64,000 bases of DNA, taken from Pseudodesulfovibrio sp. S3. Lineage in GTDB: Bacteria; Desulfobacterota; Desulfovibrionia; Desulfovibrionales; Desulfovibrionaceae. The notes below the pieces were generated by a model that made no database searches, had not been told where the DNA came from, and was given only the letters and a program-made list of their open reading frames with translations. The stretch spans positions 62,001 through 126,000 of the forward strand of contig NZ_QTZO01000002.1 in the NCBI RefSeq assembly GCF_004025585.1, in the 5' to 3' direction. Of this stretch, positions 17,788 to 38,721 are shown piece by piece. Position 1 is the first letter of the stretch; every line of letters starts with the position of its first letter. The translations under genes and the position numbers were made by a program.

Positions 17788-18075
17788 CCCAAGCCACTAT
17801 TTTCGGGCAGCGTTTCAAATACTTCCGGGGTGACCGCCGCATCGAAAAACAAGCTCATGCACCGATTTCACAACAACTCCTGAACCAAGGATTTTCTGAC
17901 AACACGTATTGACAGCGCATGAGGTTGAATGTCATTTTCATTTACTGCATTTCAATGGACGCCGATCTTCTGTGCGATGCCACATTTTCTGGCAGTTCAT
18001 GCGCAGGCGGCAACACCGTATACACCAGCGTCCAACACATGAATCCGAGGGGCGCCACAAACAAATGGAGACTCC
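17788..18075. other. Intergenic region before methyltransferase 2
   Basis: 288 bp with a Fur box at 17925-17941 and no clear terminator after the ATPase gene. Short open frames on the plus strand (from 17909 and 17919) run into the next gene in other frames and look spurious. Confidence 0.5.
17925..17941. promoter_or_regulatory. Fur box upstream of methyltransferase 2
   Basis: TTGAATGTCATTTTCAT matches the local consensus TTGAAAATCATTTTCAA at 14 of 17 positions, about 135 bp before the start codon. It implies this gene has its own iron-controlled promoter. Confidence 0.7.
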
Positions 18076-20165: not shown

Positions 20166-20824
20166 TGCGTCAGCTCAAAGACAAAGGGCAGAAGAACCCA
20201 GGTATCCACGGCCTCTCCCTTGTATTTTCCCGGCTGGAACCGCCAGCGCTTGGCCGCATTCAGGGCGGCATCATCAAAGACGCCAGCCGGTGTTGAGGAG
20301 TGAATGGTAATATCTTGCGGCGTGCCTTTAGCCGTGACAAGCATACGGACCACGACCTCCCCTTCCACCCTGTTCCGCTTGGCCACATACGGATAGTCGG
20401 GGGGGACACTGCGCAACACCTGCGGGATGTCATCCACCTCGTCCATGGTAAAGCCTATGCCGCCGAAATCTCCCGAGGGAAGGGAAATGTCACCGGCCAA
20501 CCCAGGATGCGTATCTGCTGAAAATCGGGGGGTGCTCATTGTCATGACAGGCTTGACGGGTTTGCTTTTCACCTTGTTCGAAAACTGCTTGGGGAGTTCC
20601 TTGGGTGGCTTCATCTCATCCAATTTCCTGCGCTGCAACTCCGGCAAGGGTTTGTCGCGTTGCGGCTGGGCAAGACGGATGGCTCCCTCCACAATCTCCA
20701 TGCCCTTGGGAACAGGGGCGTCATTGAGCAGCAGGATTCCGACATACACCAGCCCAACCATACAAGCCGCAACCATGCATGAGGCCACGAACTCCCCGCC
20801 CCCCCTGGCTCGTGCAACGATCAT
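20162..20824 (-). CDS. tonB: TonB energy-transducing protein
   Basis: About 220 aa from the ATG at 20824, which overlaps the exbD stop. One N-terminal membrane anchor (FVASCMVAACMVGLVYVGILLL), a Pro/Lys-rich periplasmic linker (PKELPKQFSNKVKSKPVKPV), and a C-terminal TonB domain (PDYPYVAKRNRVEGEVVVRM ... AAKRWRFQPGKYKG). It is rather short in the linker, as in Vibrio TonB2. It should energise the three TonB receptors in the window. Confidence 0.93.
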   Translation of the reverse strand: MIVARARGGGEFVASCMVAACMVGLVYVGILLLNDAPVPKGMEIVEGAIRLAQPQRDKPLPELQRRKLDEMKPPKELPKQFSNKVKSKPVKPVMTMSTPRFSADTHPGLAGDISLPSGDFGGIGFTMDEVDDIPQVLRSVPPDYPYVAKRNRVEGEVVVRMLVTAKGTPQDITIHSSTPAGVFDDAALNAAKRWRFQPGKYKGEAVDTWVLLPFVFELTQ

Positions 20825-21231
20825 TGCTTCCTCGCCGCTATGCTGATGTTCTTGACCCCTGCCAGGCGGCATTGGTCCAACACCTGGACGGCATTTCCGG
20901 TGGTGCTTTCCTGATCGGCAACAATGACGACCGAACCATCCGGTGTTTCCGCGAGAAAACGTTCCATGTAGGCGCGCACGGACCGGATATCAAGCGACCT
21001 GCCTTCAACGAATATCCGCCCGTCGCTGGTCAATCCGAGAAGGACATTGGCCTTCTCCTTGGTTTCAGCGGACTGGGCCGAAGGACGCTGGACCTCGACA
21101 CCTGATTCACGGACAAAGCTCGTCGTGACAATGAAAAAGATGAGCAGGATGAAGACCATGTCGATAAGCGGCGTCATGTTGATTTCGCTTTTGCGCGATC
21201 TGACCCCACGGGCATAACGGATGCTTTTCAT
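20821..21231 (-). CDS. exbD: Biopolymer transport protein ExbD
   Basis: 136 aa from the ATG at 21231 (GGGACGGGAA upstream). It has the ExbD/TolR signature INMTPLIDMVFILLIFFIVTT with the proton-carrying Asp in the single membrane helix, then a periplasmic domain. The longer open frame upstream overlaps exbB and lacks a ribosome site. Proton-channel partner of ExbB. Confidence 0.94.
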   Translation of the reverse strand: MKSIRYARGVRSRKSEINMTPLIDMVFILLIFFIVTTSFVRESGVEVQRPSAQSAETKEKANVLLGLTSDGRIFVEGRSLDIRSVRAYMERFLAETPDGSVVIVADQESTTGNAVQVLDQCRLAGVKNISIAARKQ

Positions 21232-21241
21232 TTCCCGTCCC

Positions 21242-21862
21242 TTACCTTGCCATTCCTTCGGTCTGATGCTGCAAGCGGATGCAGAACAATTCCATACGAC
21301 CCCTGAGCTTTCGGGCACGCTGGAACAGGAAACCGCCGAGCAACAGGCCGGGAACAGCCACCACCAAACCGCTTTGCGTGGTCACGAGGGCCTCGGAAAT
21401 ACCGGAAGCCAAAGCACGAGCATTGCCTGTGCCGAACTGGGAAATCACGTCAAACGTCGTGATCATGCCGGTTACCGTGCCGAGCAGACCAAGCAGCGGG
21501 GCCACGGCTGCAAGAATCAGGATGGTCCCGATATAGCGCATGGCCTTGAACTCCTGACGCATGCGCATTGCGTCCAGCATATCACGGTTGAGATCCTGGT
21601 CCTCGCACCGTTGTTCCATGTATTGGGAAAGAATGTCCCATTGCCACTGGGCAAGACCGGCCTTGCAGACACTGCTTTCCCCCCGGAACAGATCCAGGCT
21701 GCGCTCCGGGGTCGCCTCTCTGCGCCGTTCGCGCATGAACCTGAAGCTTTTGACAATGGCCAAAGTCCACATGATCAGGGAAAGGACAAACAGGGGGAGC
21801 ATGATATCCCCGCCTGCCTGGAAATAATCCGCCATTCGTTCCGCAAGGCTATGCAGCTGCAT
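21242..21862 (-). CDS. exbB: ExbB/MotA/TolQ proton-channel protein (second copy)
   Basis: 206 aa with three membrane segments and the family core RYIGTILILAAVAPLLGLLG followed by TGMITTF...SEALVTTQSGLVVAVPGLLL. The start (GGGAGGAA ribosome site) overlaps the previous gene by 14 bp. This is the classical-size ExbB of the cluster; the longer upstream relative is TtpC-like. Confidence 0.94.
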   Translation of the reverse strand: MQLHSLAERMADYFQAGGDIMLPLFVLSLIMWTLAIVKSFRFMRERRREATPERSLDLFRGESSVCKAGLAQWQWDILSQYMEQRCEDQDLNRDMLDAMRMRQEFKAMRYIGTILILAAVAPLLGLLGTVTGMITTFDVISQFGTGNARALASGISEALVTTQSGLVVAVPGLLLGGFLFQRARKLRGRMELFCIRLQHQTEGMAR

Positions 21863-23273
21863 CGAGTTCCTCCCGTGTTTTGATTTTACCCAGCTTCATC
21901 AGCGCCACGGCAAAACCGGTGCCCTTCTCCTCCATGTCGCCGATGATCTTGTCCACCCGCCGCTCAAGTATGTGGTGCAGAATCATGATGGGTACGGCCA
22001 CCGCAAGGCCGAGCTGGGTGGTGACAAGAGCTTCGGAAATGCCGCCCGACATCATGCGAGGATCACCGGTGCCGTAAACTGTGATGATCTGAAAGGTGTT
22101 GATCATGCCGGTAACCGTACCGAGCAGGCCGAGAAGCGGGGCCACGGCCGCAAGCACGTTCAGCGTAGGCAAAAACCGTTCAAGCATGGGCAATTCCTTG
22201 AGAAGCCCTTCCTGAAAAGCGTTTTCGATGATCTCACGCGTATTGCCGAGATATTTGAGTGTGTGACCGATGATGCGGCAGGTGGGATACATGGATTGTT
22301 CCCGGCAGAATTGTCGGCATTCCTTCCACTTCCCATTGTCGACCATGCCCAGAATCGTGGCCATATTGCGGTCCGAGTTGCCGCGTATCTTGCTCAAGGA
22401 GTAGAAACGCTCGACCACCAGAACCAGCGCGGCAATGCCCACCAGAATAATGGGCCACACCAGAAGCCCCCCGGCGCTCAGCCACTCGTATATTCCCTTT
22501 TGATCCTGAGCCAACCGGGTGAACGCGGCACCATTGGAGATGTCCACCGGAAAGACCGTACCCTTCCCCTCAAAATACTCGCGCATCAAACCCGAGAGCT
22601 TCCATCCAGGAGCGCCCTGCACGGCGACCAGGGTGCTGGCGTCGTTTCCGGGACGCAGGAATCCGAGGGATCCATCCGGCAGGCGGTACGCCATGGTGAA
22701 GGAACCTATACGCAGGAGATCGCCGGTCTTGTCTTTTCCATCGGTGCCGATGAAACTCCCGGTACGCCTTGCGACGGTGCCGGAAACCTGCAATTCTTCA
22801 AGCAACAACGTGAGCAGGTTCTGAATGCCCTCGAGACCGGGAAACTTTTCAGGCTGAAGCACTTCGGCCAGTACGGTTTCCCGCTGGGGAAACTCCGGGG
22901 TGGTCAGGCTTTCATGAAAATAATCACGCGCCTGCTTGGCTGCCGTACGAATGGTACCGTCAATGGTCTTGAGTTCATGAGCCTGTTCAGCAAGTTCTTC
23001 CTGCAGGACTTTTTCCTGTTGGAGAAGAGCATCATATTGAGCTTTCAGGGTGCTGAACTCCTTCTGCCTGACATCAATGGAATCCTGCAGGGCATTCTTC
23101 TCAGCCGAGATTTCACGCCGCTCTTGGGCGATAATGGACTCGGTTTGACGGACGTTTTCCTGCACCGTCCCGGCAACGGTTGTGACCTGTTGCGCCACCT
23201 GCTGCCACTGTTGGGCATAAGCCGGCATCGACAGCGCCAGAACAAAGAAATACGTGACAATCAGAGTTCTCAT
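21849..23273 (-). CDS. TtpC-like long ExbB-family proton-channel protein
   Basis: 474 aa. A signal peptide (MRTLIVTYFFVLALSMPAYAQ) and a long periplasmic coiled-coil region (about residues 25-130, then a globular part to about 250) precede an ExbB/TolQ domain with AAVAPLLGLLGTVTGMINTF and SEALVTTQLGLAVAVP. This layout matches TtpC, the extra essential component of Vibrio TonB2 systems. Its start overlaps the DUF3450 gene by ATGA. Confidence 0.9.
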   Translation of the reverse strand: MRTLIVTYFFVLALSMPAYAQQWQQVAQQVTTVAGTVQENVRQTESIIAQERREISAEKNALQDSIDVRQKEFSTLKAQYDALLQQEKVLQEELAEQAHELKTIDGTIRTAAKQARDYFHESLTTPEFPQRETVLAEVLQPEKFPGLEGIQNLLTLLLEELQVSGTVARRTGSFIGTDGKDKTGDLLRIGSFTMAYRLPDGSLGFLRPGNDASTLVAVQGAPGWKLSGLMREYFEGKGTVFPVDISNGAAFTRLAQDQKGIYEWLSAGGLLVWPIILVGIAALVLVVERFYSLSKIRGNSDRNMATILGMVDNGKWKECRQFCREQSMYPTCRIIGHTLKYLGNTREIIENAFQEGLLKELPMLERFLPTLNVLAAVAPLLGLLGTVTGMINTFQIITVYGTGDPRMMSGGISEALVTTQLGLAVAVPIMILHHILERRVDKIIGDMEEKGTGFAVALMKLGKIKTREELDAAA

Positions 23274-24025
23274 TGGGCGGCTCCTATGGGCAGGTCAAGA
23301 AGTTCAACAGCACGCTTTCGCTCCGCCATGTCCCTGGCCCGGCGCAAGGTGCGTGCATACTCCTGGGACAGGGGTCTCCAGGAACTTGAGGCCTTGTCCC
23401 AAACCCCCGCGGCAGACCCGTCAGCCGCCAGGTAGAAAAGAGCTGTCCGGCCAAGCCTGAAAACGGAAACCCGGGTTGGATTGCCGTCTATCGGCAACTC
23501 CCTGGTGGTTGTAGCAATGTTTCGACCATACTCCGTTTCCACAAGAAGGGCTTCGAACACCCTGCGCAACTTTTCGCTCAGGCTGAGCCGGTAGTCGTCA
23601 AGCGAGGTATGGAGAAAGGCGATTCTCGCCTGTCGCTCCTCCGGCAGGAACTGCAGATCGCGGGCCACGAACCCGTCAAGCGTGTCCACAACCGTTTCAA
23701 GAAAAGGCTCAAGCTCCATGCGAATCCTTTTGGCCTCCTCCTTGCGCCGCTCCAACTCTGCAATCACCACCTTTTGCCTTTCGATATATTTAGCGTATTT
23801 CTTGTTCTGAAAGCCGAGCCAGTCATCCATGGCCTTCATGTCTCGTATTTCATCCGACATCTCCAATTTCTTATCCGTCCAGTCGACATATTTGGACTGA
23901 GCTTCAGCCTCGGACGCCACGGCCCTGGTCAGATCCGCATGGACCTCTTCCGGGGTTGCAGCCCCTTTTGCCGAAATTGGTGACAGCAGCAATAAAGCCA
24001 CTGCAATCGTGCTTCTAATCAACAT
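23270..24025 (-). CDS. DUF3450-family periplasmic coiled-coil protein
   Basis: 251 aa from the ATG at 24025 (AGGAGT ribosome site). A signal peptide ends near SAKGAAT. A long charged coiled coil (about residues 25-125) is followed by a small beta domain (RVSVFRLGRTALFYLAADGS), the pattern of DUF3450. The gene is regularly first in TtpC-type Ton operons; it probably works with the TtpC-like protein in the periplasm. A Fur box lies 110 bp upstream. Confidence 0.88.
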   Translation of the reverse strand: MLIRSTIAVALLLLSPISAKGAATPEEVHADLTRAVASEAEAQSKYVDWTDKKLEMSDEIRDMKAMDDWLGFQNKKYAKYIERQKVVIAELERRKEEAKRIRMELEPFLETVVDTLDGFVARDLQFLPEERQARIAFLHTSLDDYRLSLSEKLRRVFEALLVETEYGRNIATTTRELPIDGNPTRVSVFRLGRTALFYLAADGSAAGVWDKASSSWRPLSQEYARTLRRARDMAERKRAVELLDLPIGAAQ

Positions 24026-24533
24026 CTGTACTCCTGGATGAAGCCCGATACCGGGCAATTCAACAAATGAGTTTGATTCTTGTTCATAGGGCTACGCATG
24101 ACACTCTCTCTGCGAAGACAAACATCAAACGATGATGAAAATCATTTTCAATATCAGAACGATTTCTTACACACAACAAAATCCAATGTAAAGCCCCTCT
24201 CAACTTCTTTTGGAAAAAATATTTTTCCCCGCTATTATCGTAAATTACCATCAATGAAACATCGCCTGCAGAGGAATCGGAATGCCTCCCCCTCCAATGA
24301 AACCCATCATAGATATCCTCTGGCAGCAAAGGGGCCTGGTTTTCCCCGCATCGAACACCTGCCTGAGGGAGTGCGTACAAAAGCTTAAGGGCATCAAGAC
24401 GCCATGGACGAATTGCATATACATTCCACCCTCCCTAAAGCCCGGAAACAGACACATCACGTGAATTATTTAGAATCCGCGCATGATCCCGCTTCGGCCC
24501 CCAGAGGGACAACTGCCAAGCCCTCACCCTCTC
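24026..24533. other. Intergenic region between Ton operon and RND exporter
   Basis: About 0.5 kb. It holds the Fur box at 24135-24151 for the Ton operon. I see no gene or clear terminator in the rest, only short frames without ribosome sites. Confidence 0.5.
24135..24151. promoter_or_regulatory. Fur box upstream of the Ton operon
   Basis: ATGAAAATCATTTTCAA, 16 of 17 to the local consensus. It is about 110 bp before the DUF3450 start, so the energising complex is iron-repressed together with its receptors. Confidence 0.85.
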
Positions 24534-26879
24534 TCAATCCATCCTCTCCTTTCCGAAGGGCTTGGTCTTGAACAGCAACACCGGCGTGATGAAAAAATCG
24601 GCGGCAAGGGCGGAGAACAGTCCTGCGCCGACCAGAAACCCCATGCTGACGAAGATCTTTACAACCGAAGCCATGTACGCCGAGAAGCTCAAGGTCAGTA
24701 CGACCGTTGTCATGAGCAGGGCCCCGCCAACAGCAAAGAAGGTCCGCCGGTTGCTCTCGACATACTTGCCGCAACGTTCGAATTCCAACTGACTGTGGTT
24801 GATAAAATGGATCGTGTCGTCGACCGCCAACCCCAACAGCATTGGGATGATTGTGACGGTGACAAGGTCGAGAGGAATATCCGCAAACCCCATGATCGCT
24901 CCGACCACAAGGGCAGGGGCAACGTTGGGAATCATGGAGATGATCCCGATGCGGATACTGCCAAAGACGATCATCATGAGGATGGTGACAATGACGAGCG
25001 CAATGAAAAAGGATCTTATCTGCCCGTAGGAAACGTATTCCTGCATGACCGTGTATTGTGATATTGCCCCGGTCAGCACCACATGCGCGTCCGGGAAAAG
25101 CCGCCCCGCCTCCTGCTGTATCCATTTGAGCTCCCGGGCCGCTTCACCGGAATTGTAATGCCCCATCTCCACTTGCAGCTTGAGCCGTTGATAGTCGTAG
25201 TCAATCCAACGCTCGACCTCGGCTCCGCCTGCATTTTCATAAAGAAGAAGCAACTGCGCCACCATCTCCCGGCTCTCGGGCAACCGGTACCACTCGGGAT
25301 CACCCTCGTGCATGACCTGATTGAGATCCTTGAGTATCTGCAACAGGGACGTTGTCTTCTTGGTCAACTCCAACTTGTCAACATCCCTCACCAACATTTC
25401 GAATTTCTTTAAATTCTCCGGATCTTTTGCCGCACCGGGCGCATCAAACTCCAGGGCCAGATTATATGAATAAAGCGAGCCGACCTGCGATTGTCCGACC
25501 TCGTAGATTCGGTCCACATACGGAATCTTGCGGCCAAAACTCCTGAGGACATCAAACGAAACCTCGATCCGACTCACACCCACGAGGCAAGCACCAATAC
25601 CGACCGCCAGCATGAAAAGATATAATCCCTGCCGCTTGAGGGAGATGTCTGCCAACCATGCCATGAATCGTTGCATACGGGTTTCACGAACAGTAATTTC
25701 GCCGGAGGGGCACTCACGGTCCTTGCCGAAACTGAGCAATGCGGGAAGCAGCGTCAGAACCACCAGGCAGGCCAGGAATACCAATGAGGCGGAAGTGAGA
25801 CCTACCCAGCGAATGGGACGCAACGGTATCAACAGGAAGGAAAGCAGCGCCGCAACGGTCGTCAGAGCACTGAATATGAGCGGCCACCCGACCTCTTCAA
25901 CGGCAATGACCAGAGACTCCTTTCTTCGACCGGTTTTCCTGAATTCGTCATTGAAGTGGTTAAAAAGGTGAATGGAATACCCGATGGACACGGCAAGGGT
26001 TATGAAAATAGGCATGAATATGACGGTCGGGTCGGTTTGAATGCCGAGGTACCCCTGCAGGCCAAACACCATGGTCATGACACAAAAGACCGTGGCAAGA
26101 GGAAAAACGACCCCACGCAGACTGCGAAGGAAAAAGAAGAGAATCAGAGTGGTGAAGACAAGTGAGATGCCCAGCAGGCGAGGTGTTTCCTTGTTGAAAA
26201 AATCAAGTTTCTCCGCAGAGATCACCGGCAGGCCGGTAGCTTGCGGATGCAGCGAAGTGTATTGGGGCTGGCTGACAATCTCATTGAAGAGGTGACCAAT
26301 GGCCATTATGGACTCTTCGCCATTGATCTGTTTGACGGACTCGGGCACATTCTTCAGGCGCAGGATAAGCCAGGTTTCGGTGCTGTCCCCGGAGACCAGC
26401 CTGCCCTTCAATGATTTTCTTGAAAGAGCCTTGCGCCGTATGGCCTCCAGCTGCCCCTTGTCTTCGGGAATGTTCTCCGGCACAAGATCTGCAATCCTGA
26501 TGCCGCCCGACACCCCTTCAGTGAACTCCATGTCGGTCAAGGACAGCACGTCGTCCGCATACGGAACCCTGTCCAGGAGTTCGTCGCCAAGCTGCCGCAG
26601 AAGACGAAGATTTTCCGATTCGAAGACATCGTCCACCGTGATCAGGGCCGCACAGAAATCCTCGTTGCCGAATAGATGTTCCATCCGATCCTTGGCCGCG
26701 AGCAACGCGTCGTCTTCCATGAACCATTTATCCTGATCCACATCGGTCTTGAGACGCGGAAGCCCTGCCGCCGCCGCAAAAGCCAATGCAAAGAACGCAA
26801 TGAATACGACCCAGCGATAGCGTATTATAGCCACGCCATATGAATGAAAAACAGCATTGATCCTGCTTATGTTAAGCAT
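24534..26879 (-). CDS. RND/MmpL-type inner-membrane exporter (COG1033)
   Basis: 781 aa from the ATG at 26879 (AAGGAG ribosome site); the upstream extension is not coding. Twin-repeat RND layout: one N-terminal helix, a periplasmic loop, six-helix bundle (TVFCVMTMVFGLQGYLGIQ..., SIGYSIHLFNHF), a second loop and second bundle (LVTVTIIPMLLGLAVDDTIHFINH). It is the HpnN/MmpL-like class rather than AcrB-like. It is the last of four minus-strand genes behind a Fur box. The substrate is unknown; export of a chelator or lipid under iron control is an inference. Confidence 0.9.
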   Translation of the reverse strand: MLNISRINAVFHSYGVAIIRYRWVVFIAFFALAFAAAAGLPRLKTDVDQDKWFMEDDALLAAKDRMEHLFGNEDFCAALITVDDVFESENLRLLRQLGDELLDRVPYADDVLSLTDMEFTEGVSGGIRIADLVPENIPEDKGQLEAIRRKALSRKSLKGRLVSGDSTETWLILRLKNVPESVKQINGEESIMAIGHLFNEIVSQPQYTSLHPQATGLPVISAEKLDFFNKETPRLLGISLVFTTLILFFFLRSLRGVVFPLATVFCVMTMVFGLQGYLGIQTDPTVIFMPIFITLAVSIGYSIHLFNHFNDEFRKTGRRKESLVIAVEEVGWPLIFSALTTVAALLSFLLIPLRPIRWVGLTSASLVFLACLVVLTLLPALLSFGKDRECPSGEITVRETRMQRFMAWLADISLKRQGLYLFMLAVGIGACLVGVSRIEVSFDVLRSFGRKIPYVDRIYEVGQSQVGSLYSYNLALEFDAPGAAKDPENLKKFEMLVRDVDKLELTKKTTSLLQILKDLNQVMHEGDPEWYRLPESREMVAQLLLLYENAGGAEVERWIDYDYQRLKLQVEMGHYNSGEAARELKWIQQEAGRLFPDAHVVLTGAISQYTVMQEYVSYGQIRSFFIALVIVTILMMIVFGSIRIGIISMIPNVAPALVVGAIMGFADIPLDLVTVTIIPMLLGLAVDDTIHFINHSQLEFERCGKYVESNRRTFFAVGGALLMTTVVLTLSFSAYMASVVKIFVSMGFLVGAGLFSALAADFFITPVLLFKTKPFGKERMD

Positions 26880-26889
26880 ACTTTGCTCC

Positions 26890-28143
26890 TTAGAAGCTGT
26901 ATTTTGCCTTGACCCAAACCTGGGAATTGTCGTGATACTGGCCATAACTGCCACTCTGGCGTCCATTGAACATGTCCGTTCCGAGGAGAAAATGAACCCC
27001 GTCTGCCATCTCATAGTCCGCCTTGGTACGGACGAACGAATCCTGATCGTTGACATTGAAATAGACCATGCAAGAGAGGGTCAGGGTCTGCCGCAAGAGT
27101 TTTTTTGAAATGTTCAACGTGGCGGTGAAGTCATGCTGATTCGCTGACAAGACAGACTCGTAATCGAGTATTTCCTCTTCGAACAACTGGAAGATCACGC
27201 TCCAGTCGTCGCCCGGAGTCCAATCTACTCCGGCCAGCCATTTAACGGAATTCTTGCGCTTGGGCTGGATGTCGAGCAGCTTGGTATCAAAATACCGGCC
27301 CAGATACCCCGCGATCTCGCACCGAAAGACGAAATCCGACCAGGGACGGGAAAAATCCAATCCCAGCACCGTCATCCTGTGGTGCTTCGGTGAAAACGTG
27401 ATCGAAGGCGTCCCGCCAGACATGGTCACAACTCGATGGTTCGCGGCAAAATCATCCCACGTGTAAAAGGCCGAGGCCGAAACATCGAAACCTGAACGGT
27501 ACGTTGAGACCTTCAGGGCCACCTCGCTGTTTTCAAACGCCAAATCAGGCTCGTCTGCGGCATGGGTGACCACGCTGGTGCCTGCGGGCCATGTTATTTT
27601 CGTGGCCCAGGGATTGTCCCCCTTGGGCAATTCAGCAGCTTCAAAAACGGGAATCCAGATCAACTCCATATCCATGTCCGAACTCAGCAACCGAAATTTG
27701 GCAGCGTCCACAGGCATGCGGATTTCATCCAGATCACGAGTGATGGACTCGGTATAGTCCGGCGGGCAAATCACGTCCGTTATCTGCACTCCGTCCGCCT
27801 TGCCCCAAATGATCGTCTGCCTTCCCAGCCGCAGGTCCCACCCGGATTCCGCATGCTCCAGCCAGAACTCGTGCAGATCCACACCGCTTTTGGACCCTAT
27901 CTTCCAGTTCTTCTCCGCATCCGCAGAAATACTTGCATACACGTACTCAAAATCCGCATCCAGATTGAGACGCATCCGCGCGCGGGACGTAATTGATTCG
28001 TGAGGGGCATACACTCCCCTGGATTGAATCGTTTCGATCCATCCTGACAAATCAAGCCGATCCGTCCAGCTCTCAGCGATCTCGGCACATGCGTCGGAAA
28101 CCATTATGACAACCAGGACGGCAACCAAGCTCACGAGTTTCAT
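26890..28143 (-). CDS. Outer-membrane beta-barrel-type protein, DUF1302-like
   Basis: 417 aa with a signal peptide ending near VSDACAEI. Alternating amphipathic strands fill the length (LRLGRQTIIWGKADGVQITD, RMTVLGLDFSRPWSDFVFRC), and the chain ends in an aromatic residue (KAKYSF), as in outer-membrane barrels. The RQTIIWGKAD motif is typical of DUF1302-like proteins that travel with COG1033 RND exporters and LolA-like proteins. It starts 5 bp after the LolA-like gene. Confidence 0.82.
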   Translation of the reverse strand: MKLVSLVAVLVVIMVSDACAEIAESWTDRLDLSGWIETIQSRGVYAPHESITSRARMRLNLDADFEYVYASISADAEKNWKIGSKSGVDLHEFWLEHAESGWDLRLGRQTIIWGKADGVQITDVICPPDYTESITRDLDEIRMPVDAAKFRLLSSDMDMELIWIPVFEAAELPKGDNPWATKITWPAGTSVVTHAADEPDLAFENSEVALKVSTYRSGFDVSASAFYTWDDFAANHRVVTMSGGTPSITFSPKHHRMTVLGLDFSRPWSDFVFRCEIAGYLGRYFDTKLLDIQPKRKNSVKWLAGVDWTPGDDWSVIFQLFEEEILDYESVLSANQHDFTATLNISKKLLRQTLTLSCMVYFNVNDQDSFVRTKADYEMADGVHFLLGTDMFNGRQSGSYGQYHDNSQVWVKAKYSF

Positions 28144-28148
28144 GGTTA

Positions 28149-28928
28149 CTAAAGTCGTCCCCGTTGGATGCTGGAGACACGAAAAAGGTCGTCTCCAAGG
28201 CCGGTGTCATAGGTCACCCCGGCAGTCTCCATGGTGGTCTTGTGTTCCCTGCTGACATTGTCCATTTCCGAAAGCAACACGGTCCAGAAACCGTTCTGCT
28301 TCTGGATATTCAATGCCCTGAAAATCTTCAGTAACCCGTCCTTGTCAAAATACTGGGCCTGGACGAGCACCAGGGCTTCCTTGTCCACCCAAAGAATTCT
28401 TTTGGTGTACATATCTTCCGGATCCACAGGGATGGATTCGATCTTCCAGCAATCGTGACCCATGACGGACTCCTCGCCCAGCAGACGATGCGTATCCTCG
28501 TCCACATTGCGTTTGCCCATGTCGTCGTAAGTGAAGTCCGTACCCATGAAGTATTCGTTTCGGGAAGCTCCGCTGATGCGCCGCGTCTTTTTCATGGCCG
28601 GCATATACAGCCACTTGTCTTCTTCCCTGTCGACGTCGTCATACTCCCACGACAAAAAGGCCGTCTTTCTGACATCCGCAGGTTCACAAAACACCATGAC
28701 CGACTTCTTGTCCCTGCCAAAGTCCTTGGAATAGCTTTTCACTTCCCTCACCCGCTTGCTGCCGCTCTTGTTTATCAAGGTCATGGTTATGACCGATGTC
28801 CGGTCCTCGCCATCCGGCCGGTCGTCCACCATTGTCATGATCTCATGGCCGGACAATTCCCCGGCCATGACCGGGGCAACACCCAGCGCACAAAAAAGAA
28901 CCATAGCGGCTACAGTCAATTTCCACAT
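28149..28928 (-). CDS. Outer-membrane lipoprotein-sorting-like protein (LolA-like)
   Basis: 259 aa from the ATG at 28928 (AAGGAG 11 bp upstream; a GTG at 28940 overlaps that site). A signal peptide ends near APVMAGE. The body matches the LolA-like family (KKSVMVFCEPADVRKTAFLSW, DKWLYMPAMKKTRRISG, FMGTDFTYDDM) found beside RND exporters. It is probably a periplasmic carrier for a hydrophobic cargo between the RND protein and the outer-membrane protein; the cargo is unknown. Confidence 0.87.
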   Translation of the reverse strand: MWKLTVAAMVLFCALGVAPVMAGELSGHEIMTMVDDRPDGEDRTSVITMTLINKSGSKRVREVKSYSKDFGRDKKSVMVFCEPADVRKTAFLSWEYDDVDREEDKWLYMPAMKKTRRISGASRNEYFMGTDFTYDDMGKRNVDEDTHRLLGEESVMGHDCWKIESIPVDPEDMYTKRILWVDKEALVLVQAQYFDKDGLLKIFRALNIQKQNGFWTVLLSEMDNVSREHKTTMETAGVTYDTGLGDDLFRVSSIQRGRL

Positions 28929-29012
28929 GTTGACGATCACTCCTTGTTTTCGGGAAGGGGCCAGAAGGTTTCCGGGATAAGGCCAGGGCCCCGAAGAACC
29001 CTGGCCCGATGA

Positions 29013-29897
29013 TTATTTCACGATAAAAGTCAGACTTGCGGCTTGGTACACCTGATCGGCTTTTCCGTAGAGATCCTTCAAGGGGCCGTCCTTCGTGACG
29101 TCGTCCTTGAGATTGGTGTTGATCATCCACTGGCCGGAGCCCTGCACGCGGAACTGGGCGAGGCCTTCCATAATGTAGGACTGCAAGGTAAAATGGTCGC
29201 TCTGGCCGAAGCTCGGGCTACTGGCCGAGATGTAGTTGATGCTCTTGGCGGTGGAGCTAACAGGTTCGCCATTGAACAACACCTTGAGTTGAATCAAGTC
29301 ACCCACATGCACGTTGCTCAGATCGGTCAGCGGAATGATCTCCAACCCATGACCGAGCGGAGCGGGCTGAGTCCATTCCTTCACCGTCATATAGGACTTT
29401 GCAAAAGCCTGAAATTTAACAGACATGAGCACTTTGTCGATATCCTTGACCTCATCGCGAGGTTTGAGCGCCAGACGTTGACGGCCTTTCTTGTCAAGGT
29501 ATTGTGTATAAAATGTCGGCTTGGACACTGCGCTGAACTGATAGACTCCGGGTTTGCTGTCCGCCTTCAAAGCGATCTTCTGGACAGCGAGATCCCCGGG
29601 ATACACATCGAAATCGCTTGTGTTCTGCGACGGTTTGCTTTCTTCGAAAGAAGGCTTTTGCAATGCGGTTCTGTGCAGATCCGGGCCTATCACCTCAAAG
29701 CTGTCGAGAAGAATTCTCCCGTTGGGCGAGTTCGGGATATCGTCCATGGGCAGCGCATGCCCCCAACCGATGGAAACCATCGCATGGGGAGGAACATGGG
29801 CATCGGAATAAAAATTGTTGATCCAGACCGAATGGGCCTGAGCGCCCGACACAGTGCCGAACACCACAAAGCACAATGTAAAAAGAAAACGTTTCAT
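29013..29897 (-). CDS. DUF4198-family periplasmic protein
   Basis: 294 aa with a signal peptide ending in GAQAHSVW; the mature N-terminus starts with His, a feature of DUF4198 proteins, which are linked to metal (nickel/cobalt or iron) uptake. Beta-rich body (PGVYQFSAVSKPTFYTQYL, PLTDLSNVHVGDLIQLKVL). It is first of the four-gene unit behind the Fur box at 29950-29968, so it is probably induced under iron limitation. A free N-terminal His plus HxxH-like residues could bind metal (inference). Confidence 0.87.
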   Translation of the reverse strand: MKRFLFTLCFVVFGTVSGAQAHSVWINNFYSDAHVPPHAMVSIGWGHALPMDDIPNSPNGRILLDSFEVIGPDLHRTALQKPSFEESKPSQNTSDFDVYPGDLAVQKIALKADSKPGVYQFSAVSKPTFYTQYLDKKGRQRLALKPRDEVKDIDKVLMSVKFQAFAKSYMTVKEWTQPAPLGHGLEIIPLTDLSNVHVGDLIQLKVLFNGEPVSSTAKSINYISASSPSFGQSDHFTLQSYIMEGLAQFRVQGSGQWMINTNLKDDVTKDGPLKDLYGKADQVYQAASLTFIVK

Positions 29898-29949
29898 GTT
29901 AACTCCATTTGGTTATGGGATTAAATGGCATCACCGTCACCTTGAAGAC

Positions 29950-29968
29950 GATAATCAAAATCATTACA
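29950..29968. promoter_or_regulatory. Fur box upstream of the DUF4198/RND unit
   Basis: GATAATCAAAATCATTACA, 14 of 18 to the classical consensus, about 55 bp before the DUF4198 start and downstream of the receptor 2 stop codon. Confidence 0.72.
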
Positions 29969-29983: not shown

Positions 29984-32140
29984 TTAAAAGTTGTACAAGA
30001 CACCTAGGCCGAAGGTTCTGGGTTCAGAAACACCGGCAATACTTGCCATACTATTTGAACGGAAAGCTGTGACGTATTTCTCGTTGGTGATGTTGTCGAC
30101 ATAGGCGTAGACATCAAAGTCCGAGAAACGGTACCCGACCTTGCCGTCAACAACGGCGTAGGGATCTGCCTTGGTAAACGACGCACTCGCATTGTCCTGG
30201 AACGAACGCGAACCAAAATACCGTCCGTCCGCACGGGTATAGAACCCGGAAGGATCGTGATAGGCAGCACTCAAACGGACGGAATGTGACGGCGTCTGTT
30301 CGATATCCTCACCGTCGAATTTTTTCGTACCGGTGTCGTAGTCGTCGTATTTGGCCTTGATAATGCTGAAGGAGCCGCTCAATTCCAGCGTATCCGTTGG
30401 CATATACGTTGCCTCGAACTCGAACCCTTGGGAGTGGGCCTTCTTGGCATTATCCGTCACGTACATGGTGCCTACGGTCTTGTAGACGTGGATGTCTTCG
30501 ATATCCATGTAGAACAGGGCCGCCGACATCCTGAATTTATCATAGCCGGCTTTCACGCCCCATTCGTAGCTTACGGATTTCTCCGGCTCGAAAGTGTTGT
30601 CCTCATCTGACCCTCCCATGGCAAAGTCGTTAAAACCGCCCGGCATGTATCCGTGGGTATACGAAAGGTATGAGGTCCAATTGTCATTGATGCTGTATGA
30701 AAGCGCAGCCTTGGGCAATAATACGTTCCAAGTCTTGTCCGTGTTCATGGAATAGAAGAGCGCAGGAGGGGCGCCGACCGGATTCATGTACATTTTCAGG
30801 TCGATATCCTTGTGGATACTCTGGAATCGACTCCCCAGAGTCAATTCAAAGCTTTCCCCCAACGGCACCATGACCTGGCCAAAAGCCGCCTTTGTCCGAC
30901 TGTGCTGTCTGGAATGGGCATCCATATCCATGGCAGGAGCACCTGCCACCTGCTGGCCGTAAGGCCCCTTTTTGAACTCTTCCATGTCCGCATAGATGCC
31001 GCACATCCAGCGGAAGCCCGTGGTTGCAACGCTGGAGAAACGGAACTCTTGCCCCCAGGAATCCGTCTCGCCGTTGTCATACATGATCAACCCGGCATAA
31101 GCAGGATCATCGCCGTGGTCGCTATCATAGACTCCTTCAATCTCCTGGCTCCTATGCGTTGAAATGGAATCCAGCTTGAAACTGTTGAATGCATATTCGA
31201 CCCTCAGACTCTGGGCGTCATTATCCGTCTTTGTCCATGTATCGACGTCGTAACTGATATGCTTGGCATCATCGGCATCAAAGGAGTCGAGACTCGAACC
31301 GACAGGCATGGCATACTCATCACCCCAATAGGTCTTTTCACGATTATGCTGCACGGCAAACCGCACTCGCAAATCATCATTGGGCGTATAAAGGATATAG
31401 CCGTTGAGCCGTTTGTCCCGCTCCCGGTTGGCATCTTCCTCCATGCCCGGATAGTCGTTCTTTATCCAACCCTGATCCCTGTCATACTGTGCACTGAAAC
31501 CCAAGAATAGCATGTCCTCGACAAGGGGGCCGTTCGCACTGGCGAACCCTTTCATATAATTCATGCTGCCATACTCCGCCCCAGCCTTTCCAAGCCACTC
31601 ATTGGTCGGGTCCTTGGTGACGACATTGATAACCGCACCCATGGCGTCCTTGCCGTACAGGGTGGACTGGGCTCCGCGCAGAACCTCCACCCGCTCCACG
31701 TTGACCAAGGACGTGTCAAAACCATAGCGGCCGCTATAGCCGACGCCATCAACGAACAAAGTCACGGGGTTGTTCTGGGTAAACATTGAGGCATTCAAGC
31801 CACGGAAGTTGACGGCAATGCCATGGTCCTTGGAAAAGGACATGCCCGGCACGGTATCAATGATGTCCGCAACGCTTTTTATCCCCTTTTCCTGAATTTC
31901 CACCTCATCGATGACGGTAATGCTCTGCGGCACATCCATCGGGTCCTCTTCCATCTTGTTCGCCGTAACCTTGACCGCTTCGAGTTTGACCACGCCGGTT
32001 TCCGATTCCTTTTCCTCGGACGCCAGGGCACCTGCGGGAAGGACAGCCAAGGCAAAGACGGACAAAAGGACCGCCGTTACCCCATACAATAAAAAAACCT
32101 GTAGGCCTCCGGTTTTCGAAAGCCTGGAACTGTTGTCCAC
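29984..32140 (-). CDS. TonB-dependent outer-membrane receptor 2 (FyuA-like context)
   Basis: 718 aa from the GTG at 32140, chosen because GAGGAGGT lies 7 bp upstream; the open frame extends further but without such a site. The signal segment is long, with the hydrophobic core VFLLYGVTAVLLSVFALAVL and cleavage near PAGALASEE. The plug has the TonB-box-like LEAVKVTANK, RGLNASMF and VERVEVLRGAQSTLYGKDAMGAVINVVT. The barrel ends in ...LGVLYNF. It lies downstream of the YbtP/YbtQ-like ABC pair and an AraC regulator, the same set of parts as yersiniabactin uptake, although similarity to FyuA itself would need alignment. Confidence 0.93.
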   Translation of the reverse strand: MDNSSRLSKTGGLQVFLLYGVTAVLLSVFALAVLPAGALASEEKESETGVVKLEAVKVTANKMEEDPMDVPQSITVIDEVEIQEKGIKSVADIIDTVPGMSFSKDHGIAVNFRGLNASMFTQNNPVTLFVDGVGYSGRYGFDTSLVNVERVEVLRGAQSTLYGKDAMGAVINVVTKDPTNEWLGKAGAEYGSMNYMKGFASANGPLVEDMLFLGFSAQYDRDQGWIKNDYPGMEEDANRERDKRLNGYILYTPNDDLRVRFAVQHNREKTYWGDEYAMPVGSSLDSFDADDAKHISYDVDTWTKTDNDAQSLRVEYAFNSFKLDSISTHRSQEIEGVYDSDHGDDPAYAGLIMYDNGETDSWGQEFRFSSVATTGFRWMCGIYADMEEFKKGPYGQQVAGAPAMDMDAHSRQHSRTKAAFGQVMVPLGESFELTLGSRFQSIHKDIDLKMYMNPVGAPPALFYSMNTDKTWNVLLPKAALSYSINDNWTSYLSYTHGYMPGGFNDFAMGGSDEDNTFEPEKSVSYEWGVKAGYDKFRMSAALFYMDIEDIHVYKTVGTMYVTDNAKKAHSQGFEFEATYMPTDTLELSGSFSIIKAKYDDYDTGTKKFDGEDIEQTPSHSVRLSAAYHDPSGFYTRADGRYFGSRSFQDNASASFTKADPYAVVDGKVGYRFSDFDVYAYVDNITNEKYVTAFRSNSMASIAGVSEPRTFGLGVLYNF

Positions 32141-32265
32141 TAGCCGTACCTCCTCAATCCATTTTATAGTTTGAGTCGACTTCATTCGCCAAACAGCGGC
32201 CGCCGTCCACCCGATGCGGGAAAAAACGACAACCCCATTCGGGAAAAACGCCGGAGAAACCGCGG

Positions 32266-34059
32266 TTACTTCAACGCGGTTGCAAAATGCCAATCCTTGA
32301 CGGACTGCTGGGCCTCCCACATATTCCTGTAGCGCCCACCATTTTCGAGCAACTCGGCATGGGCACCCTGTTGGACAATTTTCCCTTCCTCAAGCACCAA
32401 AATCGCATCGGCACCGACGATGGTCGAAAGGCGGTGGGCTATGACGATGACGGTCTTGTCTCGAACGAGCGTGTCTATGGCCTGCTGCACCACCAACTCG
32501 CTTTCCGTGTCCAGGGCGGCCGTGGGCTCGTCCAGAATGACTATGGGAGCATCTTTGAGAATGGCCCGGGCAATACTGATACGCTGTCTCTCGCCACCGG
32601 AAAGGCAGCCGCCGATGTCCCCCACGCGGGTTCTGTACCCGTCGGGCAGGCGAGTGATGAAGTCATGGCAGTGGGCGGCACGGGCAGCGGCTTCCACTTC
32701 CGCATCATCGGCGTCGGGACGCCCCATGAGGATGTTTGCACGGATAGTATCGTCAAAGAGATAGACGTCCTGAAAAACCACCGAGATGTGCCGCATCAGA
32801 TCATTCTGCTCCATGGACCGCACATCCACGCCTCCGATCAGGACCCTCCCTGCATGCGGGTCGGCATAACGCGTAATCAACCGGGTAATGGTGGTTTTCC
32901 CCGAACCGGACAATCCGACCAGCGCAGTAAGGGAACGTTCCGGCAAGCTGAAACTTGCGTGGTCAAGCACATCTTCCTCAACCTGGGCATAGCGAAAACT
33001 CACGTCCTCAAAACTGACGTCAAATCGCTCAGGCGTTTCCGGCTGGGCGGGTACGGGCAAAGGCTTGACGGCAAGCAGCTTCTCAACCTGCTCGAAACCG
33101 GCCTCCATATAGTCGAATACCGGGCTTATGCCAAAAAGCAACGCCAGGGGTTCGCTGAAACGGACGACGACAACCAACAAAGCGACCAGAACGGCAATGT
33201 TCAGGGTGCCGGCAAGAATGAACCAAACCCCGAATGAAAGTGCCACGATCAGGCCAATTTGCACCAGCGAGGAGAACAGGATTCCCGGCCAAACCAACAA
33301 CAACTGCTCTTTTTTCTGGACCTCCAGCAAGTCATACAAGGCAACCTGGACCTTCTCGGCCTTCCGCCCCACCTGATTCGTGGCCCGCAGCACGGGAAGG
33401 CCCTGGGCATACTCGACCAATTCGGCAGAGGTGCGAGCATGAGCCGCCCCGATGCAGCGATAGGCCCTGCTGGAGGCATGCCTGCGCCAATAGTACAGGG
33501 GGAGCGCCAGCGGAAACACCAAGGCCATGGACAGCGCCAGCCTCCAGTCCACGACCGCAGTGGCCAACATTGCCACCACGGGGGTGACGATAATGCTGAT
33601 AAAGGCCGAAGAAAGCATGCCCATGGGAGTGACCACCTCATCGACGTTCCCTGTGAGAACGGCGGAGAGTTCACCGGCACGTTTCCTGTAGAGGCATTCC
33701 AACGGCATCCGGCGAAGCTGTTCCCCGAGTTTTATCCGCAACTGGTGCGTCACCTCGGCGATGCAACTGGAGTAGTCAAACCGTCGGGCCGACCAAACGA
33801 AAACCATATCAAGAATGGCGCAAACAGAGAGAATGGACGCCCAGGTGCACACGCCAGCCCACTGCACCGGCGAGCTCAAAAGGTTGTCCAACAATGGATA
33901 GAAGCAGGCAAACCCCAATCCCTGCACCACGGCGGACAGTAGAGTAAACACCATGCACAAACGCAGTTGCCGGACCTGATCGCCACTGGCCTGCTGCATC
34001 CTCTTCCACGTATCGGCCAGAGGAGGCGCGGACCATTCTGTATTGATATTAGACGTCAT
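32266..34059 (-). CDS. YbtQ/IrtB-like ABC transporter (fused permease-ATPase)
   Basis: About 597 aa from the ATG at 34059 (AAGGGGG 9 bp upstream; ATG at 34065 is the alternative). Six-helix exporter-fold membrane domain, then an ATPase with Walker A GLSGSGKTT, signature LSGGERQRISIARAI and Walker B VILDEPTAALDTESE. The last motif is characteristic of YbtQ/IrtB proteins, which import Fe-siderophore despite their exporter fold. It pairs as a heterodimer with the gene just upstream. Confidence 0.9.
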   Translation of the reverse strand: MTSNINTEWSAPPLADTWKRMQQASGDQVRQLRLCMVFTLLSAVVQGLGFACFYPLLDNLLSSPVQWAGVCTWASILSVCAILDMVFVWSARRFDYSSCIAEVTHQLRIKLGEQLRRMPLECLYRKRAGELSAVLTGNVDEVVTPMGMLSSAFISIIVTPVVAMLATAVVDWRLALSMALVFPLALPLYYWRRHASSRAYRCIGAAHARTSAELVEYAQGLPVLRATNQVGRKAEKVQVALYDLLEVQKKEQLLLVWPGILFSSLVQIGLIVALSFGVWFILAGTLNIAVLVALLVVVVRFSEPLALLFGISPVFDYMEAGFEQVEKLLAVKPLPVPAQPETPERFDVSFEDVSFRYAQVEEDVLDHASFSLPERSLTALVGLSGSGKTTITRLITRYADPHAGRVLIGGVDVRSMEQNDLMRHISVVFQDVYLFDDTIRANILMGRPDADDAEVEAAARAAHCHDFITRLPDGYRTRVGDIGGCLSGGERQRISIARAILKDAPIVILDEPTAALDTESELVVQQAIDTLVRDKTVIVIAHRLSTIVGADAILVLEEGKIVQQGAHAELLENGGRYRNMWEAQQSVKDWHFATALK

Positions 34060-34073
34060 CCTCATTTTCCCCC

Positions 34074-35891
34074 TTAAGATTTTACAGTGCCACGTTGTCC
34101 CAAAGTCCAGCCGCGCGCTTGCTCGTGGCTGCTCCAAAGCCGAGCGTAAACGCCTTCCGCCGCCACCAGCTCCGCATGCCGATCGACTTCCACCACACGC
34201 CCGAGATCCATTACGACGATCTGGTCCGCGTCACGAATCGTGGAAAGCCGATGCGCGATAATGATTACCGTGCGTTCCTTCATGAGATTGGCGAGTGCCC
34301 CGATGAGCGCCGCCTCATTTTCCGGATCGGCAAATGCCGTGGCCTCGTCCAGGACCACCACCGGGCAGTCCTGCAGTATTGCGCGGGCAATGGTTATGCG
34401 CTGGCACTGCCCGCCGGAGAGACGGGCACCCCGCTCTCCCGCCACAGTCTCATAGCCTTTCGGCAAGTCCTGGATGAAATCATGTGCCTGGGCGGCACGG
34501 GCTGCCTGCTCCACCTCCTCCATGGATGCATCGGGACGCCCCATACGAATGTTGGCCGCTATGGTGTCATGAAAGAGAAAGGGATCCTGAAACACGAAGG
34601 AAACATTTTGCATGAGCGTTTCCGAGGTCATGTTCCGCACGTCTACACCGCCGATGCTGACCGAACCCCGGCTCACGTCCCAAAAGCGTGGAATCAACCG
34701 GGCAACCGTGCTCTTTCCTGCACCGGAAGGCCCCACAAGAGCCGTTACGGTTCCGACCGGAACCTTGAAACTGACACCGTGCAGGGCATCATCACTCCTT
34801 CCCTCATAGGCAAAGCTCACATTATCGAAGACAACGGTGGCATCTTCCGGCACGCGGGGCGTTCCGAGCACGGACAGTGCAGGAACTTCCAGCAGATCCT
34901 GTATGCGATGCGCGCTGGCATTGGCCTTGCGGATGAAGAAATTAAGCCACATGAGTGGAGCCAGGGATTCCGCCATGCCCGTACCAAGCAGCAAAACCAC
35001 CGCCCAGGAAGAAAAACTCAGGGTTCCGTCATGATAAAATATCAATCCGGCCACAGTCAGGGCCAACAATGTAGGCATGGGCGCAAGCACCGTTATGGCA
35101 ACCTTGGCACTGGTGCCGGAAGCCTGCAGCCACTTGACCATGATGGATTTGAACCCGTCGAGAGCGGCCTGATAGCGACCAAAAGAGGTTCCCCCGTCGT
35201 CAAAGGTCCGCACCACGGGCATGGCCTGGACAAATTCCACGACCGCACTGTTTATTTTTTCTCTTTCCGCATCATATCGGAGCTGCATCTCCTTGTTGTT
35301 ACGCATCCCCACCCGCATGAACAGCGCACCAGCAACCAGCACGGCCAACGCCACCAATGCCAGCCTCCAATCCACCACCAGCAGCAAAGCCAGAGTCGCC
35401 AAAGGTGTGGCAACGCTCCGTCCGATCAGCGGCGTGCTGTCAGCCACGAAGGCGTGAAGATTCTTGACGTCATCCTGCATCACTTTGGAAATGGAACCGG
35501 CGCCATGGGTCAAAAGATAGCCCAGCGGGATATGAGCCAAATGCTCAGTGAGATCGGTACGCAGCTTGATTTCCAACTTGAAAGCCGCCAGATGGGAAAC
35601 GGTAAACGAATACACGCGAAGCAGTATGCCGGCCACGGTCAACCCGACGGATACGAACACCCAGTTCCAGACCTGGGAATCATCCGCAAACAGAGCCGTA
35701 ACCACCAAAGCCAGTGCGGCCACTCCTCCAAGACCCGCAACAGAACCCAAAGCCGACATGGCGATTGCCAAACGAATACCCGGATTAACCGGGCGCATCA
35801 GCCCCCAAATGCCGCGTTTCATTTTTTCTCCGCCACTGAATGATGGCGAGGGCTCTTGAGCGCGGTATGAACAACTTGACTTCGAATGCAT
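34074..35891 (-). CDS. YbtP/IrtA-like ABC transporter (fused permease-ATPase)
   Basis: 605 aa from the ATG at 35891 (GAGGTG ribosome site); an ATG at 35822 with GGCGGAG is an equally good start and would remove 23 residues before the first helix. The membrane domain includes VQAMPVVRTFDDGGTSFGRY, and the ATPase has GPSGAGKST, LSGGQCQRITIARAIL and VVLDEATAFADPENE. The last is a YbtP/IrtA-type motif. With its neighbour it should bring ferric chelate across the inner membrane. It stands 15 bp before the partner gene. Confidence 0.9.
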   Translation of the reverse strand: MHSKSSCSYRAQEPSPSFSGGEKMKRGIWGLMRPVNPGIRLAIAMSALGSVAGLGGVAALALVVTALFADDSQVWNWVFVSVGLTVAGILLRVYSFTVSHLAAFKLEIKLRTDLTEHLAHIPLGYLLTHGAGSISKVMQDDVKNLHAFVADSTPLIGRSVATPLATLALLLVVDWRLALVALAVLVAGALFMRVGMRNNKEMQLRYDAEREKINSAVVEFVQAMPVVRTFDDGGTSFGRYQAALDGFKSIMVKWLQASGTSAKVAITVLAPMPTLLALTVAGLIFYHDGTLSFSSWAVVLLLGTGMAESLAPLMWLNFFIRKANASAHRIQDLLEVPALSVLGTPRVPEDATVVFDNVSFAYEGRSDDALHGVSFKVPVGTVTALVGPSGAGKSTVARLIPRFWDVSRGSVSIGGVDVRNMTSETLMQNVSFVFQDPFLFHDTIAANIRMGRPDASMEEVEQAARAAQAHDFIQDLPKGYETVAGERGARLSGGQCQRITIARAILQDCPVVVLDEATAFADPENEAALIGALANLMKERTVIIIAHRLSTIRDADQIVVMDLGRVVEVDRHAELVAAEGVYARLWSSHEQARGWTLGQRGTVKS

Positions 35892-36233
35892 CGACACCTC
35901 ACTTGGATGAGGCGGGGAAACCCCGGCAAAGGGAATCCCCACCCCGAAAGAGTTTAAAACATAAGTCCGACAGGCGTCCCGCAGAGCATGCACGAAACCC
36001 GGCCTGCTCTTCTAAAGACAAGCGGACAATGCAGTGCCGTGCCGCGAATCTCTACCCCGATCAGTAGAAACTCACGCGCGAACAGGAAAAACGGTTATGA
36101 TGGACAATGAAAAGAGAGGGTGAAGCGGCATCCGGCATTGACTTTGCCAAGGGACGTTATCGCCGCCTGCAGCAAAAAAGCACGGACAACACCGCCCGGC
36201 ATCGCCCCCTATCCTCGACTGCTAAAAGCACTC
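35892..36233. other. Intergenic region between AraC regulator 2 and the ABC pair
   Basis: 342 bp without a credible gene. It presumably holds the AraC-activated promoter of the ABC-receptor operon. I see no strong Fur palindrome here, and short plus-strand frames look spurious. Confidence 0.5.
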
Positions 36234-38710: not shown

Positions 38711-38721
38711 CGACGACGTTG

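Follow-up and report, generated by a model that had tools for sequence, protein, structure and literature searches.

The known uptake set for yersiniabactin comprises FyuA, YbtPQ and YbtA. Here we describe a locus that resembles this set in part, located in a 64,000-nucleotide stretch of Pseudodesulfovibrio sp. S3 (contig NZ_QTZO01000002.1, positions 62,001 to 126,000; hereafter the window). It is an eight-gene minus-strand operon in the order AraC, ABC, ABC, TonB receptor, DUF4198, LolA-like, DUF1302 and RND/MMPL, the last three of which we call the triad. Like the yersiniabactin set, the operon has an AraC regulator and an ABC pair nearest to YbtP and YbtQ; it also has a TonB receptor whose best solved match, by a small margin, is the pesticin receptor. 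Unlike that set, it adds the DUF4198, LolA-like, DUF1302 and RND proteins, and the window genome is without a nonribosomal peptide synthetase (NRPS). We propose, with a probability of about 0.6, that this is a Fur-regulated locus for a yersiniabactin- or pyochelin-like (aryl-thiazoline) metallophore, in which the triad would export the carrier, here more likely as re-export of a foreign one.

Arylthiazoles related to yersiniabactin and pyochelin are the products of the Bilophila bil cluster (PMC11934131; statements cited by PMC number draw on parts of the papers concerned). Going by its description only, this cluster resembles that of G159, a relative of the window genome (genomes and loci carry our own G and L labels, G000 being the window genome), in having an aryl-AMP ligase, an NRPS, a KS-AT-KR polyketide synthase (PKS), a C-A-MT-PCP-TE NRPS and a type II thioesterase. 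Unlike the bil cluster, the window has transport genes and no synthetase; the terms MMPL and TonB do not occur in the main text of PMC11934131. The mycobactin cycle, in which import by IrtAB is joined to export by MmpL4/5 (PMC12803245 for the export), also pairs an exporter-fold ABC importer with an MMPL-family RND, but in a different envelope, and the window RND scores only 21 bits against MmpL4. AmeABCD of Castellaniella shares with the window a DUF1302 barrel, a LolA-superfamily protein and an HAE3 RND, but includes a COG4447 protein as its fourth component and uses DUF1329 as the carrier, with monoterpenes as cargo (PMC6394551), whereas the window operon contains no COG4447 gene. AmeABCD, MmpL4/5 and the RND and LolA-like proteins with a proposed role in aryl polyene transport (PMC8253772) are precedents for the transport proposed here.

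Data on iron response come from Bacteroidota. In cultures treated with dipyridyl, expression of genes PG1175-81 of P. gingivalis (ABC genes, LolA-type, MMPL, TetR) rose 13.4-136.2 fold, and that of similarly composed P. intermedia operons rose 40-223 fold (PMC10434189). Some of the P. gingivalis operon genes were likewise less expressed when hemin was in excess and more expressed when hmuS was mutated (PMC10470040, PMC13227078), and we therefore rejected the possibility that dipyridyl acts as a mere xenobiotic inducer. These TetR-ABC-ABC-MMPL-LolA operons, which are strongly induced by iron depletion, are like the window operon in that an ABC pair, MMPL and a LolA-type protein occur together; unlike it, they have no receptor or DUF4198 named, and the ABC type differs where it was placed in a tree (L041). 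The likeness was drawn via the Bacteroidales loci L041, L037 and L042 rather than the sequences of those strains themselves.

We found no MMPL-LolA-DUF1302 set proposed as a metallophore exporter in the portions of the open-access literature consulted. NRPS metallophores have rarely been recorded in these anaerobes, with 5 regions in 847 Desulfobacterota genomes (PMC12971057). The locus combines known parts and families, with a likely cargo assignment that is new. It offers a testable function for a widespread set of MMPL-type RND, LolA-like and DUF1302 proteins whose cargo is mostly unknown, and ties this set to metallophore traffic in anaerobes. If the proposal is true, the locus would be a Gram-negative counterpart of the mycobacterial arrangement in which an ABC importer of mycobactin is paired with an MMPL exporter of siderophores, and it would be an example of a cell exporting a carrier that it does not make.

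The ABC pair of the operon gave clear matches. Among solved chains, ABC1 matched 6p6i_A with 572.6 bits and the next molecule with 433.3 (a margin of 139 bits), and ABC2 matched 6p6i_B with 597.2 and 8vsi_B, named YbtQ, with 595.9 bits, the next scoring 444.1 (a margin of 153 bits). In its structure entries, the partner of 6p6i_A is the YbtQ chain. As judged by sequence, ABC1 and ABC2 are YbtP- and YbtQ-like, these being their nearest relatives by a wide margin. The best solved chain for the receptor was the pesticin receptor 4epa (114 bits), with a small margin over Fiu (90.8 bits), and its score of 206 bits against TIGR01783 is below the cut-off of 223.5. The first-pass annotation of this DNA had missed the ABC pair and the receptor, which alter the picture most. 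The eight-gene operon contains no gene for a solute-binding protein, and the LolA gene comes directly after those for the receptor and DUF4198; both would suit an explanation in which the LolA-like protein aids import by ferrying a lipophilic ferric metallophore through the periplasm to the YbtPQ-like pair. Such a function, however, would assign nothing to the RND pump or the barrel, and the triad follows synthetases in four producers, while the stretches of G159 that were read showed no receptor or ABC pair. We consider this explanation highly improbable.

Evidence for export comes from the linkage of the triad to synthetase genes. Across 247 genomes of the class, with cut-offs of E<=1e-150 for NRPS and E<=1e-40 for LolA, heterocyclising-type NRPS were found in 25 genomes and LolA in 29. 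Both occurred in 11, and in every one of these the two lay 1.8-16.4 kb apart. The chance of a distance of at most 20 kb in all 11 would be about 10 to the minus 20 if the genomes were independent and had one NRPS place each, but they fall in 7 genera and are not independent. Nine of the 11 loci were read (all except those of G134 and G141). In G159, G190, G226 and G235, LolA and RND follow genes for a PKS, an NRPS-TE and a dehydrogenase on the same strand; DUF1302 lies between them in three of the four and was not seen in G190. An ABC pair and an AraC gene come after RND in G190, G226 and G235, and G159 has the same order up to RND, where its contig ends. The loci of G065 and G091 add an LCM-type methyltransferase, and those of G122, G187 and G218 add DUF4198.

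In G159 and Mailhella (L036, G226), LolA-DUF1302-RND is immediately preceded on its own strand by large synthetase genes, in the order PKS (KS-AT-KR-PCP in G159), NRPS (C-A-MT-PCP-TE) and zinc-type dehydrogenase, and further upstream G159 has an aryl-AMP ligase (DHB-AMP-ligase-like), a phosphopantetheinyl transferase and a thioesterase. The solved chains matched by the G159 NRPS included bacillamide synthetase (730 bits, the nearest), dihydroaeruginoic acid synthetase (595 bits) and Irp2 (279 bits). Metallophore export, one of two functions guessed in the first-pass annotation, is favoured by the position of triads directly after thiazoline-type PKS/NRPS genes in four genomes, together with the proximity of NRPS and LolA in all 11. 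From these sequences we infer both the cargo and the outward direction, that is, a triad that would act as an exporter of aryl-thiazoline-type metallophores.

The window genome itself gave no match to the condensation domain PF00668, while control genomes matched; an NRPS-made siderophore of its own was thus ruled out, and the genome is not classed as an NRPS metallophore producer. A route through an IucA/IucC synthetase was ruled out as well, as none was found. The staphylopine-type dehydrogenase PF10100 gave no match either, but no control genome matched, and this search decides nothing. In the mechanism that we propose, the TonB receptor, energised by the adjoining Exb/TonB operon, and the YbtPQ-like pair would import the metal-loaded carrier, and DUF4198 would act on the metal in the periplasm by binding, taking or buffering it. 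On the way out, the ligand would be picked up at the inner membrane by the RND pump, shielded during its passage of the periplasm by the LolA-like protein and released at the outer membrane by the DUF1302 barrel. In relatives this relay would be part of a biosynthetic cluster and serve secretion. In the window genome it may recycle or expel spent, scavenged metallophore, which the lack of an NRPS makes more likely than secretion, and the recurring methyltransferases may modify the ligand. In its most specific form the proposal would make this non-producing anaerobe a siderophore borrower that imports foreign aryl-thiazoline carriers, strips the metal and re-exports the carrier via the RND-LolA-barrel relay of producers, perhaps with methylation of the ligand (phenolate or carboxylate) by the linked O-methyltransferase and LCM-type enzymes; as a whole, this version is rather doubtful.

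The neighbourhood conservation search suggested by the first-pass annotation showed the eight-gene order in three other genomes of the genus: G001 and G017 have it unchanged, and G027 has it split across two contig ends. This shared order ruled out the four genes from DUF4198 to RND, which had been described as a set behind a Fur box, as a stand-alone unit; they are intact, their families were named correctly and the box is present, but they form the second half of the longer AraC-ABC-ABC-receptor operon. Of 36 genomes of the genus, 11 gave a LolA match, in most cases a distant one. In the class, the YbtP type (>800 bits) occurs in 8 of the 247 genomes, seven of which also have LolA with at least 375 and DUF4198 with at least 390 bits, a combination seen in no other genome of the 247. 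The hypergeometric probability is 8e-13 for YbtP with LolA and the same for YbtP with DUF4198, uncorrected for kinship. In the eighth genome, G143, the contig at this position is only 4 kb long. No NRPS condensation domain was present in six of the eight (G000, G001, G017, G176, G183 and G215), while G190 and G143 have one. A methyltransferase of the type encoded at 14213-15397 of the window lies between DUF4198 and LolA in G190, G176 and G183 and beside LolA in G215, LCM-type enzymes adjoin RND or LolA, or lie in their vicinity, in G017, G027 and G183, and homologues of both methyltransferases of the window's 11171-18903 cluster occur inside related triad operons. G190 has a YbtPQ-type importer locus and an NRPS cluster about 100 kb away, each with its own LolA and RND (L109, L110, L127, L128). 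In G215, a 1123-aa frame without a Pfam match lies between the receptor and ABC genes (L108:5197-8565).

We scored Fur-like sites as matches to the classical 19-base consensus. At exactly 15/19, 0.1 sites are expected under a first-order model of the window, and all 12 sites of at least 14/19 in window positions 1-46000 are intergenic. The 15/19 site before AraC1, the first gene of the operon, is also found in L018, L019 and L020. The box ahead of DUF4198, which the first-pass annotation had already pointed out, includes a 15/19 site, and its core TGATTTTGATTrTyG is kept in 4/4 genomes while the remaining gap has diverged. Two producers of one genus, G235 and G226, share an identical 14/19 site at the LolA start. 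Membership in a Fur regulon is indicated by a box at the promoter, present as a consensus match only, and we infer that the operon would be under iron/Fur control. A strong stem between DUF4198 and LolA is also conserved in 4/4 genomes, with structure kept and sequence changed, so that DUF4198 could be partly uncoupled from the triad; the stem-loop may set a lower level of the triad. A canonical terminator was rejected at this place, because the stem has no T-run in the window.

The apparent iron control bears on an explanation by detoxification or immunity, in which the triad would expel hydrophobic antibacterial thiazoles or amphiphiles that enter via the receptor and the ABC pair, and would confer self-resistance in producers. 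The bilothiazoles, products of the Bilophila cluster of very similar described architecture, are antibacterial (PMC11934131), AmeABCD, with its DUF1302, DUF1329/LolA and RND proteins, confers tolerance to monoterpenes (PMC6394551), and the Bacteroidota versions have a TetR regulator (PMC10434189; L034/L041), all of which would be in keeping with such a role. However, control by Fur-like boxes looks iron-type, and the P. gingivalis operon genes respond to hemin supply without a chelator (PMC10470040). Although detoxification and export of one cargo are hard to tell apart by genomics, we regard detoxification as unlikely.

The triad proteins were identified by Pfam matches over cut-off (PF17131, PF06980 and PF03176), which upholds the earlier naming of all three. 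Solved relatives of the LolA-like protein are 9tp6 (247 bits), 4z48 and 3bk5. The model of the DUF1302 barrel, built from an alignment of 36 of 65 listed barrel frames and that of the window, had a pLDDT of 92.5 and matched MOMP, OprD/Occ porins and AlgE with Z of 21-23. The RND protein passed Pfam MMPL, but membership in HAE3 by TIGR00921 was rejected, as its 201.4 bits, over nearly the whole length, are below the cut-off of 351.9. Its second-repeat VDDT motif is invariant in 21/21 sequences; in iron-type members, inspection by eye showed that the corresponding position of the first repeat is not acidic, and coupling may rest on one half of the pump. The best solved relatives of the RND include the hopanoid-linked HpnN (34 bits) and MmpL3 (18.7 bits) along with the siderophore exporter MmpL4, and a role for RND and LolA-like proteins in the placement of aryl polyene lipids has been proposed for E. 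coli (PMC8253772). These relatives could point to envelope remodelling, in which the triad, linked to uptake by shared regulation only, would supply the outer membrane with a lipid or a hopanoid-like molecule during iron stress. Yet no recurrent lipid-biosynthesis gene was recognised in the annotated loci, where many frames are nameless; what recurs instead are NRPS/PKS genes, ABC pairs, receptors and AraC regulators, and the modelled barrel is similar to substrate porins and to the exporter of alginate. Membrane remodelling, the second function guessed in the first-pass annotation, gained no positive evidence and appears distinctly improbable.

A scan of other genomes gave 80 loci in which the LolA-DUF1302-RND triad is almost general. 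Some contigs carry two labels (L032=G027:C7, L028=G176:C101, L036=G226:C124, L029=G178:C146, L030=G111:C102, L052=G021:C132), and the two locus sets were counted separately. Among the 21 loci with a LolA of at least 43% identity, an ABC pair or half was near 13, a TonB receptor near 9, AraC near 9 and DUF4198 near 4. The corresponding counts for the 58 more distant loci (59 taken, less L097, which had no LolA frame) were 3, 5, 3 and 2. In the RND tree, the window falls in a 22-row clade (SH-aLRT 100) and within it in a 12-row clade (99), in which all 11 assessable rows have an ABC pair. The ABC label shows 6 changes on this tree, compared to a shuffled mean of 13, and none of 500 shuffles was as low; the tree is of the 'quick' kind with long-branch warnings, and 32 of its 74 rows carry no ABC label. 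In a separate lineage, the Deferribacterales locus L050 has the order RND-LolA-DUF1302-receptor-YbtPQ-type ABC pair-MFS, with the RhtX/FptX siderophore family as the best match of the MFS protein, below cut-off, and L089 has AraC-DUF4198-RND-LolA-DUF1302. As read from its genes, this lineage repeats the coupling to iron genes separately.

Several observations weigh against metallophore export by the triad. The homology of the RND to MmpL4 is very weak at 21 bits, and the comparable set AmeABCD exports monoterpenes (PMC6394551). The triad is also found far from iron genes, with an ABC pair near 3 of the 58 distant loci only, and the linkage to ABC genes changes six times in the RND tree. In several relatives from termite guts and the Bacteroidota the ABC pair is another one, not YbtPQ-specific; the YbtPQ type was rejected as a universal partner, since the remaining iron-type loci have another pair. 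There is no IucA/IucC in the window genome and, with the condensation domain absent too, no endogenous cargo is known. A strict Cy motif was absent from the terminal NRPS module and present in one G159 module only. Finally, the importer loci of G190, G176 and G215 have no Fur-like site of at least 15/19, and control may differ there.

The DUF4198 protein would supply the metal-handling step of the proposed metallophore locus. Its N-terminal histidine, noted in the first-pass annotation, was borne out: the mature protein begins with H22 after ...AQA, a cleavage site read by eye, and H22, H34, H38 and H47 are invariant in 6/6 aligned homologues. A model built from an alignment of five loci and the window had a pLDDT of 81. 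Its best matches were structures of Zcp, a protein that we know from structure entry titles alone, in complex with Zn, Co or Cu (Z 19.6-19.9), followed by a DUF4198 protein with bound Ni at Z 18.1; beyond these, Z fell to 9.0. The protein is thus predicted to share the fold of solved Ni-, Zn-, Co- and Cu-binding proteins, and metal binding is predicted. A DUF4198 protein of I. sakaiensis binds nickel with a Kd of 18 nM (PMC12537917). The first-pass annotation had called the coupling of the pump to DUF4198 and Fur unusual, which is half right, as DUF4198 beside Fur-controlled or iron-responsive TonB receptors (PMC3751524, PMC7190382) and an iron-responsive MMPL/LolA/ABC operon in Bacteroidota (PMC10434189) have both been published.

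Positions of all features are collected in Table 1. A megablast search against E. coli returned no matches. The window is an iron island, in which two further AraC/TonB receptor/ABC clusters (11171-18903 and 37637-45476) flank the operon and the Exb/TonB set. The RND start at ATG 26879 fits relatives, whereas the listed frame to 27056 would overlap DUF1302, and the spacings between LolA and DUF1302 and between DUF1302 and RND are 5 and 10 bases, with no gene between.

Table 1. Features of the locus and its surroundings, with positions in the window.
Feature	Position	Strand	Remarks
AraC-family regulator AraC1	36234..37319	-	PF12833 69.7 bits; first gene of operon; same place in L018, L019, L020
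ABC1, YbtP-like half-transporter	34074..35993	-	best solved chain 6p6i_A
ABC2, YbtQ-like half-transporter	32266..34065	-	best solved chains 6p6i_B, 8vsi_B
TonB-dependent siderophore-type receptor	29984..32188	-	PF00593 159.1 bits
DUF4198 periplasmic protein	29013..29897	-	PF10670 126.5 bits (cut-off 34)
LolA-like periplasmic carrier	28149..28928	-	PF17131 203.6 bits (cut-off 30)
DUF1302 outer-membrane beta-barrel	26890..28143	-	PF06980 33.4 bits only (cut-off 23.2)
RND/MMPL (HAE3-like) inner-membrane pump	24534..26879	-	PF03176 123.2 bits (cut-off 20.5)
Fur-like box before AraC1	37409..37427		15/19
Fur-like box, receptor/DUF4198 gap	29944..29968		overlapping sites at 29944 and 29950, 14 and 15/19
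Fur-like box before DUF3450/Exb/TonB operon	24131..24155		16/19
Stem-loop between DUF4198 stop and LolA start	28929..29012	-	strong; no T-run in window
DUF3450, ExbB, ExbB, ExbD, TonB, TPR operon (likely energiser)	18993..24025	-	downstream of RND
AraC, TonB receptor, O-methyltransferase, no-family gene, permease, ATPase, LCM-type methyltransferase	11171..18903	+	
Third AraC / TonB receptor / SBP_bac_6 / ABC cluster	37637..45476		divergent from AraC1
FeoB	6-2522		left edge of window

The DUF3450/Exb/TonB set comes directly after RND in G001 (L019), as in the window. This likely energiser is of unusual make-up and recurs beside the triad loci L019, L028 and L022 and those of G190 and G218. The methyltransferases of the 11171-18903 cluster recur in metal-uptake loci of relatives. 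Two Fur-like sites lie between AraC1 and the divergent 37637-45476 cluster, which is also near the operon in G001 (L117), and FeoB relatives adjoin triad or NRPS genes in L022, L034 and L108. The same genome has a second, divergent LolA-RND-DUF1302 set with an AraC regulator and a TonB receptor (G000:C2:299875-302898, L024), where a Fur-like site of 16/19 is found at 6443.

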